Made by a program: the position numbers and the translations under genes. Below are positions 1,349 through 7,825 of a DNA stretch of 64,000 nucleotides, piece by piece. The first letter of the stretch is position 1. Each line of letters begins with the position of its first letter. A model generated the notes under the pieces. That model did no database searches. It saw only the letters and a list, made by a program, of their open reading frames with translations, and was not told the DNA's origin. Origin of the DNA: Pelolinea sp. (GTDB lineage Bacteria > Chloroflexota > Anaerolineae > Anaerolineales > Anaerolineaceae); contig JAUYCC010000026.1 in the NCBI GenBank assembly GCA_030692365.1, positions 1 to 64,000 of the forward strand, given 5' to 3'.

Positions 1349-3043
1349 ATGGACGAGATCTCACGCAAGTCATTATCCGAAATCGTTGCCGGCAAACTGG
1401 CCGCCCAGGTTCTGGACGGCACCTACAAACCCGGCTACCAGCTACCCGCCGAACGCGACCTGATCAAACAGTTCGGCATCAGCCGCTCAACTCTGCGTGA
1501 GGCATTAAAGGCGCTTGAAGAAAGCAACCTTATCGAATCTCGCCACGGTGTTGGTTGGTTCGCCTCAAAACTGGATGAGAACAACCTCGCGGCAGCCCAT
1601 ATCATCGCCCAGGCGGCGGAATCGTCCATCCCCGCCATCCGCTTGGCGCCCGGCGATTCACCCGAAGGGCCACGCCGCTTACCGGTTAACCCCGAAAAAC
1701 CGATCATTATTCCCAACCTGAAAAAAGACCGGCTGGGCACCTTTCAGTTCATATCCTGGTGGGAACGCGAAAAGGTTGAGAACGCTAAGATCATGGTGGT
1801 CGGCGCAGGCGCGCTGGGCAATGAAGTGATTAAAAACCTGGTGCTGATGGGCATCGGCAATATTTTTATCGTGGATTTTGACGAGATTGAACTCGCCAAC
1901 CTTTCGCGCTCAGTGCTTTTCCGTGAATCTGATACCGGACGCAAAAAAGCCGAGGTGGCTGCAGCGCGCGCCAAGGAGATCAACCCCAATATACACGTCC
2001 AGTATTTTCACGGCGACGTGACCGCCGCCCTCGGGCTAGGTATCTTTCGCCGTATGGATGTAATCATTGGCTGCCTGGATAACCGCGAGGCGCGCCTGGC
2101 GGTCAACCGCTTCGCTTATTGGATCAACAAACCCTGGGTGGACGGCGCCATTCAAGAATTCCTCGGCCTGGCGCGCGTGTTTGTACCTGGCGAGGGCGCC
2201 TGTTTTGAATGCAGTCTTACCGAACAAGCCCGCCGCGACCTGGCGATCCGCTATTCCTGCCCTCTGCTAGCGCGCGAGAACGTGCTGCTGGGCAAGGTGC
2301 CTACCACCCCTACCATCGCCTCCATCATCGGCGGCATTCAGGCGCAGGAAGCGCTGAAGCTTATCCACAACAAACCGGTCAAACCCGGCAGCGTTATGCA
2401 CTTCAACGGCATGACTAACGAAATGCACGTAACTGCCTACACGCCGGTTGAGGATTGTGAAAGCCACTGGACCTACGGCGAAATTACCGAGCTGCCCCTA
2501 CGCGCCGACACCACCACGCTGCAGGATATGCTGCGCATCGCACATCGCGAGCTTGGACAAGAAGCTGTGTTGGAACTGGACCAGGAACTGGTGCTGGCAC
2601 TCACCTGCCCCATTTGCGGCACGCGAGAAGAAGTACTGCAGCCCATTTCCTCCGTTGGTTTCAACCGCGCCCACTGCCCGACCTGCGGCATCCTGCGCGA
2701 GACTGAACTTTCGCATGCTATTCACGGTGATGAAAACTTCCTGACGCGAACTATGGCCAGCGTGGGCGTTCCGGCGCTGCATATCATAAGGGCTTACAAC
2801 GCGCAGGAGTACCGCTTCTATGAACTGACCGGCGACCTGCCCGACACGCTGCATTTCAGCCATTTTGAACTGCCAGCATACGAAAAACCGCTCAAACTCA
2901 GCGGTCGTATCAAGCTGAAAGAAAAAGTAACCGTGAAAGTGCGGCCGAAGATCAAGCTCCACACCCCAAAGCTTACAACCGCTGGTAATCCGGAGGAGCC
3001 CGCAGAGAAAATCAAGATTAAGGTCAAGAGGGATGGGCTTTAA
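1349..3043 (+). CDS. GntR-type winged-HTH fused to ubiquitin-activating E1-like (ThiF/UBA fold) enzyme
   Basis: N-term GYQLPAERDLIKQFGISRSTLREALKALEESNLIESRHGVGWF (GntR); VVGAGALGNEVIKNLVLMGIGNIFIVDFDEIELANLSR nucleotide-binding fold; CFEC...CPIC/CPTC zinc ligands; candidate thioester Cys304 (YSC, codon 2258-2260); lysine-rich C-tail. Confidence 0.85.
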   Translation: MDEISRKSLSEIVAGKLAAQVLDGTYKPGYQLPAERDLIKQFGISRSTLREALKALEESNLIESRHGVGWFASKLDENNLAAAHIIAQAAESSIPAIRLAPGDSPEGPRRLPVNPEKPIIIPNLKKDRLGTFQFISWWEREKVENAKIMVVGAGALGNEVIKNLVLMGIGNIFIVDFDEIELANLSRSVLFRESDTGRKKAEVAAARAKEINPNIHVQYFHGDVTAALGLGIFRRMDVIIGCLDNREARLAVNRFAYWINKPWVDGAIQEFLGLARVFVPGEGACFECSLTEQARRDLAIRYSCPLLARENVLLGKVPTTPTIASIIGGIQAQEALKLIHNKPVKPGSVMHFNGMTNEMHVTAYTPVEDCESHWTYGEITELPLRADTTTLQDMLRIAHRELGQEAVLELDQELVLALTCPICGTREEVLQPISSVGFNRAHCPTCGILRETELSHAIHGDENFLTRTMASVGVPALHIIRAYNAQEYRFYELTGDLPDTLHFSHFELPAYEKPLKLSGRIKLKEKVTVKVRPKIKLHTPKLTTAGNPEEPAEKIKIKVKRDGL

Positions 3044-3912
3044 TGAAACTGATTAACGGTCTAATAAAATGGATCATCGTGTTGGCGCTGGCGTTATCCA
3101 CCGGATTATTGGTAATCATTTTTTTGTCATCCAAACCTGAGCTCGGCACTTATCTGTTGCGCCTCATCCTGTTGGCTGCGGTCGGGTTCATCGGCGGTCT
3201 GGCTTCCAGAGTTTTTTTTGGAGGATTATCGGCTGTTGTGACCATTTTTATAACCATGCTTGCTAACCTGCTGGCTGTACTGGCGATCGACCATTTCTAC
3301 GCTACTGCTTATCAATTCCAATTTTTGGGCAATGATTTTCGTCTCCAGGCTCCAACAGTCACCGACGGAAGCCAGTTTTTATTAATGACCCTGGTATCTC
3401 TGCTGCCGCTGTTGCTCTTCAGGAAAACGACTAAGACGAACGCCAGCCTGCGTAAAGCACCCAAGCCTAAAAAAACTCGCAAGTTCTTTTCTCAAACCAT
3501 TCAGCCGGTTCTGACCAAGGCAGACCCCCGAAATTGGAAGCTTTGGAAAAAACCTAAACCTATGGCTGTAAAACACACACCGGTAAAAACAACCAGGGTT
3601 GAAAAACCGGTTCTGTCTGTTGCGCGCCCAAGCGCTTCAATCACCGCAAGCCAGCCGGTGACCATCCGGAAAAGCGCGGCTGTTAAGCCTGCTGTGAAAA
3701 AGCTTAAGCTGCCCGGCAAACTTTTTAAGGGCAGCCAGGCGGATGTCAAGCTGGTGGGTGAAGAAGAACATGTTTGCCCCTATTGCCTGGAAGAAGTGGT
3801 GAAAGGTGATAGCCGCGGCGTAACGGTCTGCCCTGAATGCGGAACCTGGCACCACCAGGATTGCTGGAGTCTAACCGGTTCATGCGGTGTCGCCCACCGC
3901 AATGAACTTTGA
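3043..3912 (+). CDS. Multi-TM membrane protein with C-terminal RING-like treble-clef zinc finger (candidate E3)
   Basis: About 4 hydrophobic helices, Lys/Pro-rich linker, then CPYC-x14-CPECGTWHHQDCWSLTGSC; TAATG overlap with the E1 gene. Confidence 0.75.
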   Translation: MKLINGLIKWIIVLALALSTGLLVIIFLSSKPELGTYLLRLILLAAVGFIGGLASRVFFGGLSAVVTIFITMLANLLAVLAIDHFYATAYQFQFLGNDFRLQAPTVTDGSQFLLMTLVSLLPLLLFRKTTKTNASLRKAPKPKKTRKFFSQTIQPVLTKADPRNWKLWKKPKPMAVKHTPVKTTRVEKPVLSVARPSASITASQPVTIRKSAAVKPAVKKLKLPGKLFKGSQADVKLVGEEEHVCPYCLEEVVKGDSRGVTVCPECGTWHHQDCWSLTGSCGVAHRNEL

Positions 3913-3944: not shown

Positions 3945-4793
3945 ATGGCTGACATCGCAACCACAATCGTTTTACCCAATGGAGGCGCCCGCCGGGCGGA
4001 TATGCCAAATGATATTCCGATCCGCGACCTGCTGGAAGAGTTGACCTCCCTTCTGGAACTGCCCACCGTGGGTCCGGACGGCCGCCCGATGGGTTATCGC
4101 GTGGACAGCAAGGCACTTGGGCGCGAACTGCGCGAAGATGAAACCCTGGCCAGTGCGGGCATTCCTTCTGATGACCGCCTGATGATAACCACCGACATCA
4201 CTGCCGGTGCCATTTCGCTTGATTCCAACCCGCGCACGCGCCGCCTGCGCAAGGATTATGAGTTGATCCAGGAGTTAAATGCCCGCAGCGACCTGATCCA
4301 GGTGCAGGCCAAACAAGAAAAAGCTGGTATGCCACCTGAAAGATACATCATTACCTATAAATGCAAGGGTATTATCGGCATTGATGGTAAGGGCAACCCT
4401 AAAATCAGCGAGAAACACCAGGTGGAGATCTATCTTCACAGCCAGTATCCCCAGCGCTGGCCGGGGATGAAATGGCTGACGCCCATCTGGCATCCTAATA
4501 TTAATCACGCCAACGGCAGCGTGTGCATTGATGCCGCCTGGTGGTCTGCCAGCCGCTCGCTGGATCGGTTGGTGATCATGCTGGGCGAGATGGTGCAGTT
4601 CAAGAATTTCCACGACGACCCCACCAAAGCGCCCTACCCTTGGGATATGGAAGCCGCAACATGGTGCCGCAAATTCCGAAAAACCCATCCCAGATATTTT
4701 CCGCTGGATACACGTGAACTTCTGCGCCCCGAACGGGTCAAAATCAGCAAACCCAAGGTGCAGTCGGTCAAACCCAAAATTAAGCTCAAATAA
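3945..4793 (+). CDS. Ubiquitin-like domain fused to E2 (UBC-fold) conjugating enzyme
   Basis: N-term 88 aa align without gaps to the next ORF (Ubl); C-term PIWHPNINHANGSVCIDAAWWSASRSLDRLVIMLGEM = E2 HPN...Cys motif (Cys194, codon 4524-4526). Confidence 0.87.
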   Translation: MADIATTIVLPNGGARRADMPNDIPIRDLLEELTSLLELPTVGPDGRPMGYRVDSKALGRELREDETLASAGIPSDDRLMITTDITAGAISLDSNPRTRRLRKDYELIQELNARSDLIQVQAKQEKAGMPPERYIITYKCKGIIGIDGKGNPKISEKHQVEIYLHSQYPQRWPGMKWLTPIWHPNINHANGSVCIDAAWWSASRSLDRLVIMLGEMVQFKNFHDDPTKAPYPWDMEAATWCRKFRKTHPRYFPLDTRELLRPERVKISKPKVQSVKPKIKLK

Positions 4794-4811
4794 GAAGAAA
4801 GGAGAACAACA

Positions 4812-5078
4812 ATGTCTGATAAATCTGTAACCTTGGTACTGCCTTCCGGAGGAACCCGCAGCGCAGAAGTTCCCGATGATGTACCCGTGAAGGAACTGGT
4901 GCCCGAACTGGCTACCACCCTGGAACTGCCCACCGTAGGCCCTGACGGCCGACCGGTGAGTTACCGGCTGGATAGCAAGGCGCTTGGCCGCGAACTGAAA
5001 GATGACGAAACGCTTGCAGGCGCAGCAGTGCCCGACGACGACCGCCTGATGATCACAGCTGACATCACCGCCGGATAG
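4812..5078 (+). CDS. Stand-alone ubiquitin-like protein (YukD/beta-grasp-like), C-terminus ...DITAG
   Basis: 88 aa; 58/88 identical (hand count) to the N-terminus of the adjacent E2; ends exactly at Gly. Confidence 0.8.
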   Translation: MSDKSVTLVLPSGGTRSAEVPDDVPVKELVPELATTLELPTVGPDGRPVSYRLDSKALGRELKDDETLAGAAVPDDDRLMITADITAG

Positions 5079-5108: not shown

Positions 5109-5780
5109 TTGAACATCACTCCGCGTGTGAAGCTTGCGACCCAGAAAAAATTTCTGCCGCACCTCACACGCATCCCCCTGCACAGGGCGATGCGCTGGGT
5201 GCCAAAGGATGAGGATATGAACAGCGTTGAACCGCCCCTGGATATTTTTTTGACTCAAAACGCCTTTGTGCGCATGTGCGCGCACGCAGGCAGCGACCTC
5301 GACAACGAGGTCGGTGGGTGGATGGCCGGTAAATACTGCCGTGACTCCCTAGACGGTACGCCATTTATCGTGATCGATACTATCCTGCCTGCCATCCATA
5401 CTGAACAGGGCGCGGCACACCTCACCTTTACCGGTGACACTCAAATCGCGCTGCACAGCCATCTGGAAGAACATTTTCCGGACAAGGTCTTTCTGGGCTG
5501 GTACCACACACATCCGCGCATGGGGGTGTTCTTTTCCCATTGGGACACCTGGCTGCACCAAAACTTTTTTCCTGAAGCGTGGCAGGTTGCGCTGGTGATA
5601 GAGCCGCACCGCTCGGTGGGCGGGTTTTTCATCCGTCAGGCGGACGGCAGCCTGGACCAGCACGCATACTTTGGCTTCTATGAGCTGACCAAAAGTAGCC
5701 AGAGAAGCGTGGTCTTTTGGCGGAACCTGCAACCTGCCCCGCAATTCAATGACGAGACTGAGGAGGTCTTATCTAAATGA
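5109..5780 (+). CDS. JAMM/MPN+ (JAB1) metalloprotease, candidate deconjugase
   Basis: NEVGGWMAGKY upstream Glu and WYHTHPRMGVFFSHWD = H-x-HP-x6-S-x2-D JAMM motif (H133/H135/S143/D146); TTG start. Confidence 0.87.
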   Translation: MNITPRVKLATQKKFLPHLTRIPLHRAMRWVPKDEDMNSVEPPLDIFLTQNAFVRMCAHAGSDLDNEVGGWMAGKYCRDSLDGTPFIVIDTILPAIHTEQGAAHLTFTGDTQIALHSHLEEHFPDKVFLGWYHTHPRMGVFFSHWDTWLHQNFFPEAWQVALVIEPHRSVGGFFIRQADGSLDQHAYFGFYELTKSSQRSVVFWRNLQPAPQFNDETEEVLSK

Positions 5781-6634
5781 GTCGTTTAATGCGTTTTTAT
5801 ACCTACGGGCTGCTCGGAGCTATCGGCGGGCTGATCGGATGGCAGATCAGCAACATCCTCGGGCTGTCCTTTACGGATAATCTATTCCTGAGCGAGGTAA
5901 CCATCGGCGCCCTGCTGGGCGGTGTGATTGGCCTCTTCATCGGTTTCGGTGAAGGTTTCGCCGCGCAGAACTTTCTATTTGGGCTGCGCAAAGCCCTGCT
6001 CAGCGCCCTGTTGGGCGCACTGGGCGGCGCCATCGCTCTGCCCATTGCTGAAGGCGTGTTTCTGTCCATTGGCGGCCCGGCATGGAGCCGGCCGATCGGT
6101 TGGGCAATATTTGGCCTGCTGACCGGGCTGTCAGCCGGTTTCACCGGCGGCGCGCAGCTCTGGAAAGGTGGGCTGGGCGGCCTGATCGGCGGAGCGTTGG
6201 GCGGCACCCTGCTGGAAGGTTCGCGGCAGATGTTCTCTGACCCTCTGATGGGAAAAGCCGCTGGCCTGATGCTCTTGGGTTTGGCTGTGGGTGTTTTCAT
6301 CGCGCTAATCGTGTTCATGCTCTCGCGTGCCTGGCTGGAAGTGGTCGGCGGCAAGATGAAAGGCATGGAATTCATTCTGGATAAATTCCTGGCCAAAGGC
6401 GGTCCTTCCGCGGCCATCGGCAGCAGCCCGTTGAAATCGGATATTGTTATTGCAGACCCGGACATCGCGCCGCAACATGCCATCCTGACCGGTGAAGGGA
6501 CTTACTTCACGCTCAAAGACATCAGCATGACCGGCACCTATCTGGATGGGAAGAAGATTGAAATTTCCCGCCTGCGCGCCAACCAGCGCATCCGCATGGG
6601 CAAATCTGAAATGGTCTATCACGAAAAGAGGTAA
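5777..6634 (+). CDS. Gly-rich multi-TM protein with C-terminal FHA domain
   Basis: GxxxG-rich hydrophobic N-terminal region; SDIVIADPDIAPQHAILTGEGTYFTLKDISMTGTYLDGKKI FHA-like; ATGA overlap with the JAMM gene. Confidence 0.75.
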   Translation: MSRLMRFYTYGLLGAIGGLIGWQISNILGLSFTDNLFLSEVTIGALLGGVIGLFIGFGEGFAAQNFLFGLRKALLSALLGALGGAIALPIAEGVFLSIGGPAWSRPIGWAIFGLLTGLSAGFTGGAQLWKGGLGGLIGGALGGTLLEGSRQMFSDPLMGKAAGLMLLGLAVGVFIALIVFMLSRAWLEVVGGKMKGMEFILDKFLAKGGPSAAIGSSPLKSDIVIADPDIAPQHAILTGEGTYFTLKDISMTGTYLDGKKIEISRLRANQRIRMGKSEMVYHEKR

Positions 6635-6636
6635 TC

Positions 6637-7758
6637 ATGAAGAAATCATTGCGATCATTTCTTGTCCTGCCACTGTTGGCGGCTCTGCTCCTGCTGCCTG
6701 CCTGCCAGACGGCACCCAAGGTTGAATCCACCGGCGAGTACGTCCTGCAGATTACGCAGATCGACACCACCCAATTTCCGCTGGTGAATGTTTATATCTC
6801 GGTGCGGGACGCGGCAGGCGAACCGCAAATGATCAACACCGGCAAGCTACAACTGCTGGAAAACGGCCAGCCGGTAAGCAACCAGAGCATCCAGGGCGAG
6901 GGCGAAGTAGGCCCACTGACCACAATGCTGCTGATTGACAACTCCGGCAGCATGAATTTTGTGGGTAAGCTCGAAAGCGCCAAAGCGGTAGCCAAAGAGT
7001 ACCTGGACCAGATGCGCCCCGACGACCAGGCGGGCGTGATTGCCTTTAATACCAAAGTAAGCGTGATGCAGGACGTCACCGCTGACCGCGAAGCGCTGGT
7101 GAAAGCCATCGACAGCATTACGGCGCGAGATGACACCGCGGTTTACGACGCGCTTTCCACCGCCATCGGCATTCTCAATCCGTTACCCGGCCGCAAGGCG
7201 ATCATCGTCCTGACAGATGGCATGGATAACTCCAGCAAGGCCACACCAGAGGAAGCGCTGGGCAGCATCGGTTTTGGCGGCCTGTCTATCTCTACCGTCG
7301 GTTTCGGGCAAATGCCCGAGGGTGAAGAGCAAACTGATAAATATAAGGGCATCGACGAAGCCACCCTGCGCATGATTGCTAAAAGCACCGGCGGGCAGTA
7401 TGGCTACACCGAGGACAAAGCCCAGCTTTCTGCGTTATATGACCAGATGCGACGCGCTTTACAAAGTGAAGCGGTGATCAGTTACATCACCCCGCTTTCC
7501 CTGCGAGACGGCGTACAGCGCGCGCTGACTGTGACGCTTTCCGACCGGTTTATTGGTGTGGGCGGCGAATCGCAAACCAGCTTCAATCCCGGCGGCCTAG
7601 TGCCCGAAGTGGCGCAGCCGGCATCATGGATTACCTTTGGAATAATCCTTACAGTCTTGGTCCTGCTGCTGTTCATTCCGGTTGTAGTTATCGCTTTTAC
7701 AAATAAAGAACCGAAGAAAAAGAAGAAGAATAAAATTAAAATTACACTTAAAGATTAA
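6637..7758 (+). CDS. VWA-domain lipoprotein with C-terminal TM helix and basic cytoplasmic tail
   Basis: LLLLPAC lipobox; LLIDNSGSM MIDAS; IIVLTDGMDN; C-terminal TM then KKKKKNKIKITLKD. Confidence 0.85.
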   Translation: MKKSLRSFLVLPLLAALLLLPACQTAPKVESTGEYVLQITQIDTTQFPLVNVYISVRDAAGEPQMINTGKLQLLENGQPVSNQSIQGEGEVGPLTTMLLIDNSGSMNFVGKLESAKAVAKEYLDQMRPDDQAGVIAFNTKVSVMQDVTADREALVKAIDSITARDDTAVYDALSTAIGILNPLPGRKAIIVLTDGMDNSSKATPEEALGSIGFGGLSISTVGFGQMPEGEEQTDKYKGIDEATLRMIAKSTGGQYGYTEDKAQLSALYDQMRRALQSEAVISYITPLSLRDGVQRALTVTLSDRFIGVGGESQTSFNPGGLVPEVAQPASWITFGIILTVLVLLLFIPVVVIAFTNKEPKKKKKNKIKITLKD

Positions 7759-7783: not shown

Positions 7784-7825
7784 GAGAATGGCCTGTGAAT
7801 AACGGGCCATTCTCAAATATTTTTT
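7784..7825 (+). terminator. Rho-independent terminator of the Ubl operon
   Basis: gagaatggcc (7784-7793) / ggccattctc (7805-7814) stem followed by aaatatttttta. Confidence 0.85.

Follow-up and report, generated by a model that had tools for sequence, protein, structure and literature searches.

In eukaryotes, ubiquitin is produced as part of fusion proteins with unrelated partners, from which it can be cleaved; in UBA52 and RPS27A, ubiquitin is joined N-terminally to another protein and is cut after its tail. Among bacteria, the Bil operon, as described, is not known to include a RING protein, and its ubiquitin-like proteins (Ubls) are arranged as one ISG15-like protein. Bacterial operons for E1, E2, RING, JAB and Ubl proteins were reportedly described in 2011 by Burroughs, Iyer and Aravind. 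Such operons (PMC4197634) share with the locus analyzed here a Ubl, an E1, an E2, a RING protein and a JAB-type peptidase, as well as a sporadic distribution. In BilABCD, too, genes for a bacterial Ubl, an E1, an E2 and a JAB protein are grouped in a single operon (PMC11354881). The cluster of Caldiarchaeum subterraneum (CsUb, CsRpn11) is similar in its five-part composition and its Rpn11-type JAMM, an enzyme that both matures a ubiquitin precursor and cuts conjugates (PMC6043591). PolyUbl operons (row 6e in Iyer et al., 2006, PMC1779556) resemble the locus in that tandem Ubls share an operon with E1 and JAB genes; certain species have the polyUbl joined to an E2-like domain, which was described as inactive (PMC1779556).

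The window, the whole stretch of 64,000 nucleotides that was analyzed, comes from a Chloroflexota genome of the class Anaerolineae, with Pelolinea as its closest named relative. It contains seven genes in a row, all on the + strand, encoding an E1 with a GntR-type HTH, a membrane RING protein, a Ubl-E2 fusion, a Ubl, a JAMM, an FHA protein and a VWA protein. A sigma-70-type promoter (TTGACA-16-TATAAT, 1280–1307, + strand, 12/12 matches) precedes the row and is, among 15 promoter-like sites found (5.0 expected), the sole 12/12 site. Directly downstream of its −10 box lies an inverted repeat (1308–1336) with a putative FadR/GntR-type operator core, TGGTCTGACCA, at 1317–1327. On the 3′ side of the VWA gene, a terminator-like hairpin (7784–7814, + strand) consists of a 13-bp stem followed by AAATATTTTT. 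Judging by this promoter and this hairpin, the seven genes probably form one operon.

Domain and motif analysis assigned a candidate function to each of the conjugation proteins. The E1-like enzyme (1349–3043, + strand) combines an N-terminal GntR winged helix (Pfam GntR, 1.3e-18), a ThiF adenylation domain (5.6e-57) and a zinc ribbon. Its candidate catalytic Cys304 was conserved in at least 95% of 61 sequences and two C-x-x-C pairs were conserved as well; with a ThiF domain and a conserved candidate cysteine, activity as an E1-like activating enzyme is predicted. The membrane protein encoded at 3043–3912 (+ strand) ends in a RING-type domain (Prok-RING_1, 7e-9) whose binuclear C/H zinc ligands (C245, C248, C263, C266, H270/H271, C274, C281, H285) were conserved in 64 sequences, and is a candidate E3 ligase. 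In the 282-aa Ubl-E2 fusion (YukD + UQ_con; 3945–4793, + strand), the E2 domain (4209–4790, + strand), in which a 7-residue linker precedes helix 1, carries a catalytic Cys194 (codon 4524–4526) and an HPN motif (residues 183–185), both invariant in 61 sequences. It resembles eukaryotic E2s, with UBE2K and RAD6 among its matches in the PDB; its UBC fold, HPN motif and catalytic cysteine are those predicted of an active UBC enzyme. The Rpn11-like JAMM metallo-isopeptidase (5109–5780, + strand; Pfam JAB, 3.6e-9) has an intact motif (E, HxH-x7-S-x2-D) formed by E67, H133, H135, S143 and D146, all invariant across 42 orthologues; among solved structures, RPN11 enzymes are its nearest relatives (8e-8). 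The last two genes encode a membrane protein with an FHA domain (5777–6634, + strand; Pfam FHA, 5.4e-11) and a lipoprotein-like VWA protein (6637–7758, + strand; VWA_2, 1.7e-17), whose lipobox and C-terminal TM segment were read from the sequence. Similar basic tails occur at the C-termini of the E1 (KIKIKVKRDGL, 3043), the E2 (KPKIKLK, 4793) and the VWA protein (KIKITLKD, 7758). These tails are kept as a class in orthologues and could possibly constitute a shared docking peptide.

Two copies of the Ubl are encoded. The first comprises residues 1–88 of the fusion (3945–4208, + strand), which form a beta-grasp core in the structural model, and the second is a free 88-aa protein (4812–5078, + strand). 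A single BLASTP comparison gave 58/88 identities (66%), 76/88 positives and no gaps (E 1e-42); together with a check of the open reading frames, it proved the hand count and coordinates of the initial annotation to be exact. Also as first noticed there, the free frame ends in DITAG-stop, while the equivalent point in the fused protein reads DITAG-AISLDSN and the chain runs on into a UQ_con domain (PF00179, E 7.1e-11). The designation "tandem" was apt in that the genes are adjacent, but the second copy sits after the E2 domain and not head-to-tail with the first. Both copies scored above the 27-bit gathering score of Pfam YukD (PF08817; fused, 34.3 bits, E 4.2e-8; free, 45.4 bits, E 1.4e-11), which makes them YukD-type Ubls. 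Modeled alone, the Ubl reached a pLDDT of 94; ubiquitin and Caldiarchaeum ubiquitin are among the solved folds nearest to it. The neighbors that would place it with YukD/EsaB in type VII secretion (WXG100, FtsK/EssC-type) were found neither at the locus nor in approximately 60 related loci, in which the Ubl genes are accompanied by E1, RING, E2, JAMM, FHA and VWA genes.

A scan of GTDB genomes yielded 66 loci, with the same gene order in almost all. The free copy was present in 59 of the 62 loci with an intact fusion, and in the other three the contig ends just after the E2; one further locus (L068), with an apparently frameshifted E2, was excluded from the fused counts. Both copies thus occur in all 59 evaluable orthologous loci. 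Chance similarity is ruled out by this recurrence, and the lack of co-conservation that the initial annotation had named as grounds against its interpretation was not encountered. Among 400 genomes of the order of the window (Anaerolineales), 91 gave a Ubl match, eight of them weak hits only, and 81 of the 83 genomes with strong hits had both copies. The two exceptions (G408 and G467) were not counted as losses, since their matches sit, as far as the coordinates show, at contig ends. The system occurs in approximately one-fifth of the order (83 of 400 genomes) and is thus not universal there; it is carried by the complete genome of Pelolinea submarina MO-CFX1 (L005). The same species encodes a third, distant YukD-like open reading frame of 87 aa (G735, C1:1486601–1486834, E 2.3e-5).

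A sister order in the same class provided an outgroup. There, an E2 was found in 48 of 56 genomes, within an open frame of approximately 160–225 aa in 47 of the 48, and a single Ubl per genome was encoded by a separate gene ending in EVTAG-stop in every intact copy read. These loci (L067, L078, L086–L108), with a nearly invariant EVTAG Ubl and a separate E2 in most genomes, represent a simpler relative system. Because the sister order has a single standalone Ubl and a separate E2, the fusion and the duplication are, on this comparison, derived. Nearly all free copies terminate precisely in TAG, which is present in 60 of 60 and directly followed by a stop except in one that ends TAGA (L056), and so does every intact sister-order Ubl that was read; by the same comparison, TAG is the older, working tail. 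In other classes of Chloroflexota, weak Ubl hits lay mostly in long frames (often approximately 500 aa), stopped before the tail and resemble EccD-like YukD fusions.

Two loci depart from the fused arrangement. In L064, a single Ubl of the fused type has its own gene, ends in TAG-RQL and overlaps the start of the E2 gene by ATGA. That genome has no other Ubl, and a fused-type Ubl can thus act as its one modifier, although the grouping of this Ubl with the fused copies is weak. Two JAMM genes follow this split-off Ubl and E2 (L064, 6001–6860). The genome with locus L076 has an unfused E2 and one free Ubl, and the fused copy is therefore dispensable there. The standalone E2s begin with MKVGPGESPH in L064 and with MTVRVTDSPR in L076, where the start was placed by eye by matching the SPR motif; in both, this corresponds to residue 88 or 89 of the fusion.

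The junction between Ubl and E2 (D84-I85-T86-A87-G88/A89; 4194–4211, + strand) is the most constrained segment of the fused protein and a proposed processing site. DITAG is invariant at residues 84–88 in 63 of 63 fused proteins, so that the tail is preserved at the junction throughout, whereas its codons take most synonymous forms. By parsimony on a tree of the E2 part, the tail underwent approximately 101 synonymous and no nonsynonymous changes, as against 125 and 115 in the seven following codons (Fisher 4e-23) and 1568 and 567 in the core of the fused Ubl (Fisher 9e-14); the counts are approximate, given partial saturation of synonymous sites and a tree built on a single short domain, but they differ widely. 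At the position following G88, only A (41 proteins), G (12) and S (10) were observed, with 5–11 residues between G88 and the conserved P96, where helix 1 starts. In an AlphaFold model of the fusion, the Ubl and E2 folds were both confident, the last Ubl strand ended at residue 84 and residues 87–93 had a pLDDT below 50, which places the tail outside the folded core. In the model of the Ubl alone, the last strand reached residue 85 and the final block of residues was of lower confidence. A folding constraint as the cause of tail conservation is therefore unsupported.

These observations can be accommodated in a membrane-associated bacterial Ubl conjugation pathway in which the E2 would first be translated as a Ubl-E2 precursor. 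Cleavage after G88, by the Rpn11-like JAMM of the operon or by a different protease of the same specificity, would release a mature Ubl ending in -TAG and an E2 beginning at A89. The second gene would supply a paralogous Ubl that is already mature, so that the shared E1/E2/RING chain could use two related but distinct modifiers. Of the two roles that the initial annotation had offered for the fused Ubl, that of a precursor cleaved after TAG by the adjacent JAMM is favored over that of a scaffold because no segment is more constrained than the tail despite its position outside the fold, because only A, G or S follows it, and because standalone E2s start at the proposed cut. Furthermore, a JAMM that removes free Ubl from lysines must recognize TAG; a fusion that is to stay uncut would then be expected to lose this site, and the opposite was seen. 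The archaeal enzyme offers a precedent, in that bulky residues just after the cut block CsRpn11 and a small one speeds it, while a penultimate alanine is tolerated but slowly processed, Gly77Ala slowing cleavage (PMC6043591). Both the A/G/S after TAG and the AG tail fit these rules. Against a precursor, the Giardia Ub-S27a fusion shows that fusions of this type can lose cleavage, G75A at its junction letting it escape (PMC11354881), and Gly77Ala slows CsRpn11, although the free Ubl of the window operon itself ends in AG. A small residue after TAG would also be expected of a flexible linker, and the faster evolution of the fused core and the consistent differences between the copies might suit a docking domain. 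The limited occurrence of the system in the order and the dispensable fused copy in L076 likewise count against it. Taking these points together, we consider it fairly probable that a Ubl-E2 precursor is cut after TAG by the JAMM of the operon, where we infer the cleavage, the part of the JAMM in it and the use of both products.

The two copies are not interchangeable, in view of consistent sequence differences at positions 15, 27, 31, 35, 36, 42, 50, 81 and 85. Several of these positions lie in or near helix 1 (27 R/K, 31, 35 S/T, 36 L/S), and Lys27 occurs in 95% of the free copies and in 2% of the fused copies, a contrast that would matter if chains form through Lys27. In a phylogenetic tree, fused and free copies formed nearly separate groups (3 and 5 changes, vs. 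approximately 44 in shuffles), which, together with the consistent differences, rules out homogenization of the copies by recombination. The core of the fused Ubl evolves faster than that of the free Ubl (odds ratio 1.6) and its tail is invariant, indicating that the tail was kept while the rest was somewhat relaxed.

Given such differences, the fused copy could have a function in cis. It might stay attached and serve the E2, E1 or RING protein as a domain for docking or regulation, with the free Ubl alone being conjugated, and the systematic divergence of the fused copy around helix 1, its faster core evolution, the short linker of 5–11 residues and the near-perfect co-occurrence of one fused and one free copy would all be compatible with this. 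However, a free-type tail would be superfluous in a permanently attached domain, yet no segment is under stronger constraint than the disordered DITAG, and in the fusion a JAMM with TAG-Lys bonds to cut would encounter an identical TAG. A lineage with an E2 lacking the Ubl exists. AlphaFold, moreover, placed neither domain confidently relative to the other (pTM 0.59, with too few sequences for contacts), and the constitutive backside or scaffold Ubl that the initial annotation had offered as its other option thus lacks support from docking, besides being disfavored by the constraint on the tail. A permanently attached Ubl is possible but, in our assessment, unlikely. A fused tail that binds the JAMM or the E2 active site uncut, as a substrate mimic by which the protease is kept at the E2 or held in check, would account for both the invariant internal tail and the divergence of the rest; with no cleavage-stopping feature at the scissile position, where the next residue is always small, and no precedent found in the literature searched, we regard it as highly improbable. 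A neutral fusion by stop-codon loss, without consequence and with the similarity of the copies held by recombination, could have arisen easily from adjacent separate genes such as those of the sister order, but the codon counts show the fused tail and core to be under strong purifying selection, and this and the near separation of the copies in the tree reduce its probability to almost nothing.

Under the favored reading of a processed precursor, the helix 1 differences suggest that the two Ubls are probably distinct modifiers and not two sources of one tag. Expression of the system may be controlled by its own activating enzyme. Columns of the GntR winged helix of the E1 (1349–1560) were conserved at at least 90% across 61 sequences, and the outgroup E1 is without this domain. 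In 44 of 60 loci, a perfect palindrome, TGGTC-N-GACCA, precedes the E1 start by 32–45 nt; counting a looser form, the number is 49 of 60. Outside the window, 910 kb of fetched sequence contained 44 strict sites, 43 of which were these pre-E1 sites. The palindrome is one that we take to be a FadR/GntR-type operator. The simplest interpretation of such an operator upstream of an E1 with a GntR winged helix is possible repression of the operon by the E1 itself, a candidate autorepressor. A tentative and, we think, rather doubtful extension would have the E2 blocked by its own modifier until a JAMM cut frees it and supplies the second Ubl, while the GntR-E1 tunes the operon to the Ubl supply. If this were true, one enzyme would be both tag activator and pathway repressor, and one protease would both start and reverse the pathway.

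Compared with the described systems, the locus is distinct in several respects. Relative to Burroughs-type operons as described in PMC4197634, it has a second Ubl, fused to the E2 with its tail preserved, and adds a GntR winged helix on the E1 and the FHA and VWA membrane genes. A search with PADLOC gave no BilABCD-specific match, only generic E1 and JAB domains being matched. The Ubl model resembles CsUb, but CsUb loses nine residues on trimming, whereas the extension here would be a whole E2, and the tail is AG, not GG. In polyUbl systems the Ubl repeats are in one chain; in the window operon, as in the related loci, each chain has one Ubl, one of the two being encoded by a separate gene, and the E2 has its cysteine and HPN motif. 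The partner in UBA52 and RPS27A is a ribosomal protein, whereas here it is the E2 of the pathway itself, joined to a YukD-type Ubl that ends in AG. No description of a comparable Ubl-E2 fusion in Chloroflexota was found in the literature searched. The type of operon is thus known, while a Ubl-E2 fusion under selection at its tail and an E1 with its own operator appear to be new variants of it. A bacterial pathway with the tag fused to its own conjugating enzyme and selection visible at the cut site would allow tests, in a seven-gene system, of how ubiquitin precursor processing originated. It also points to bacterial signaling with two modifiers and to a possible second function of the E1 as repressor of the operon.
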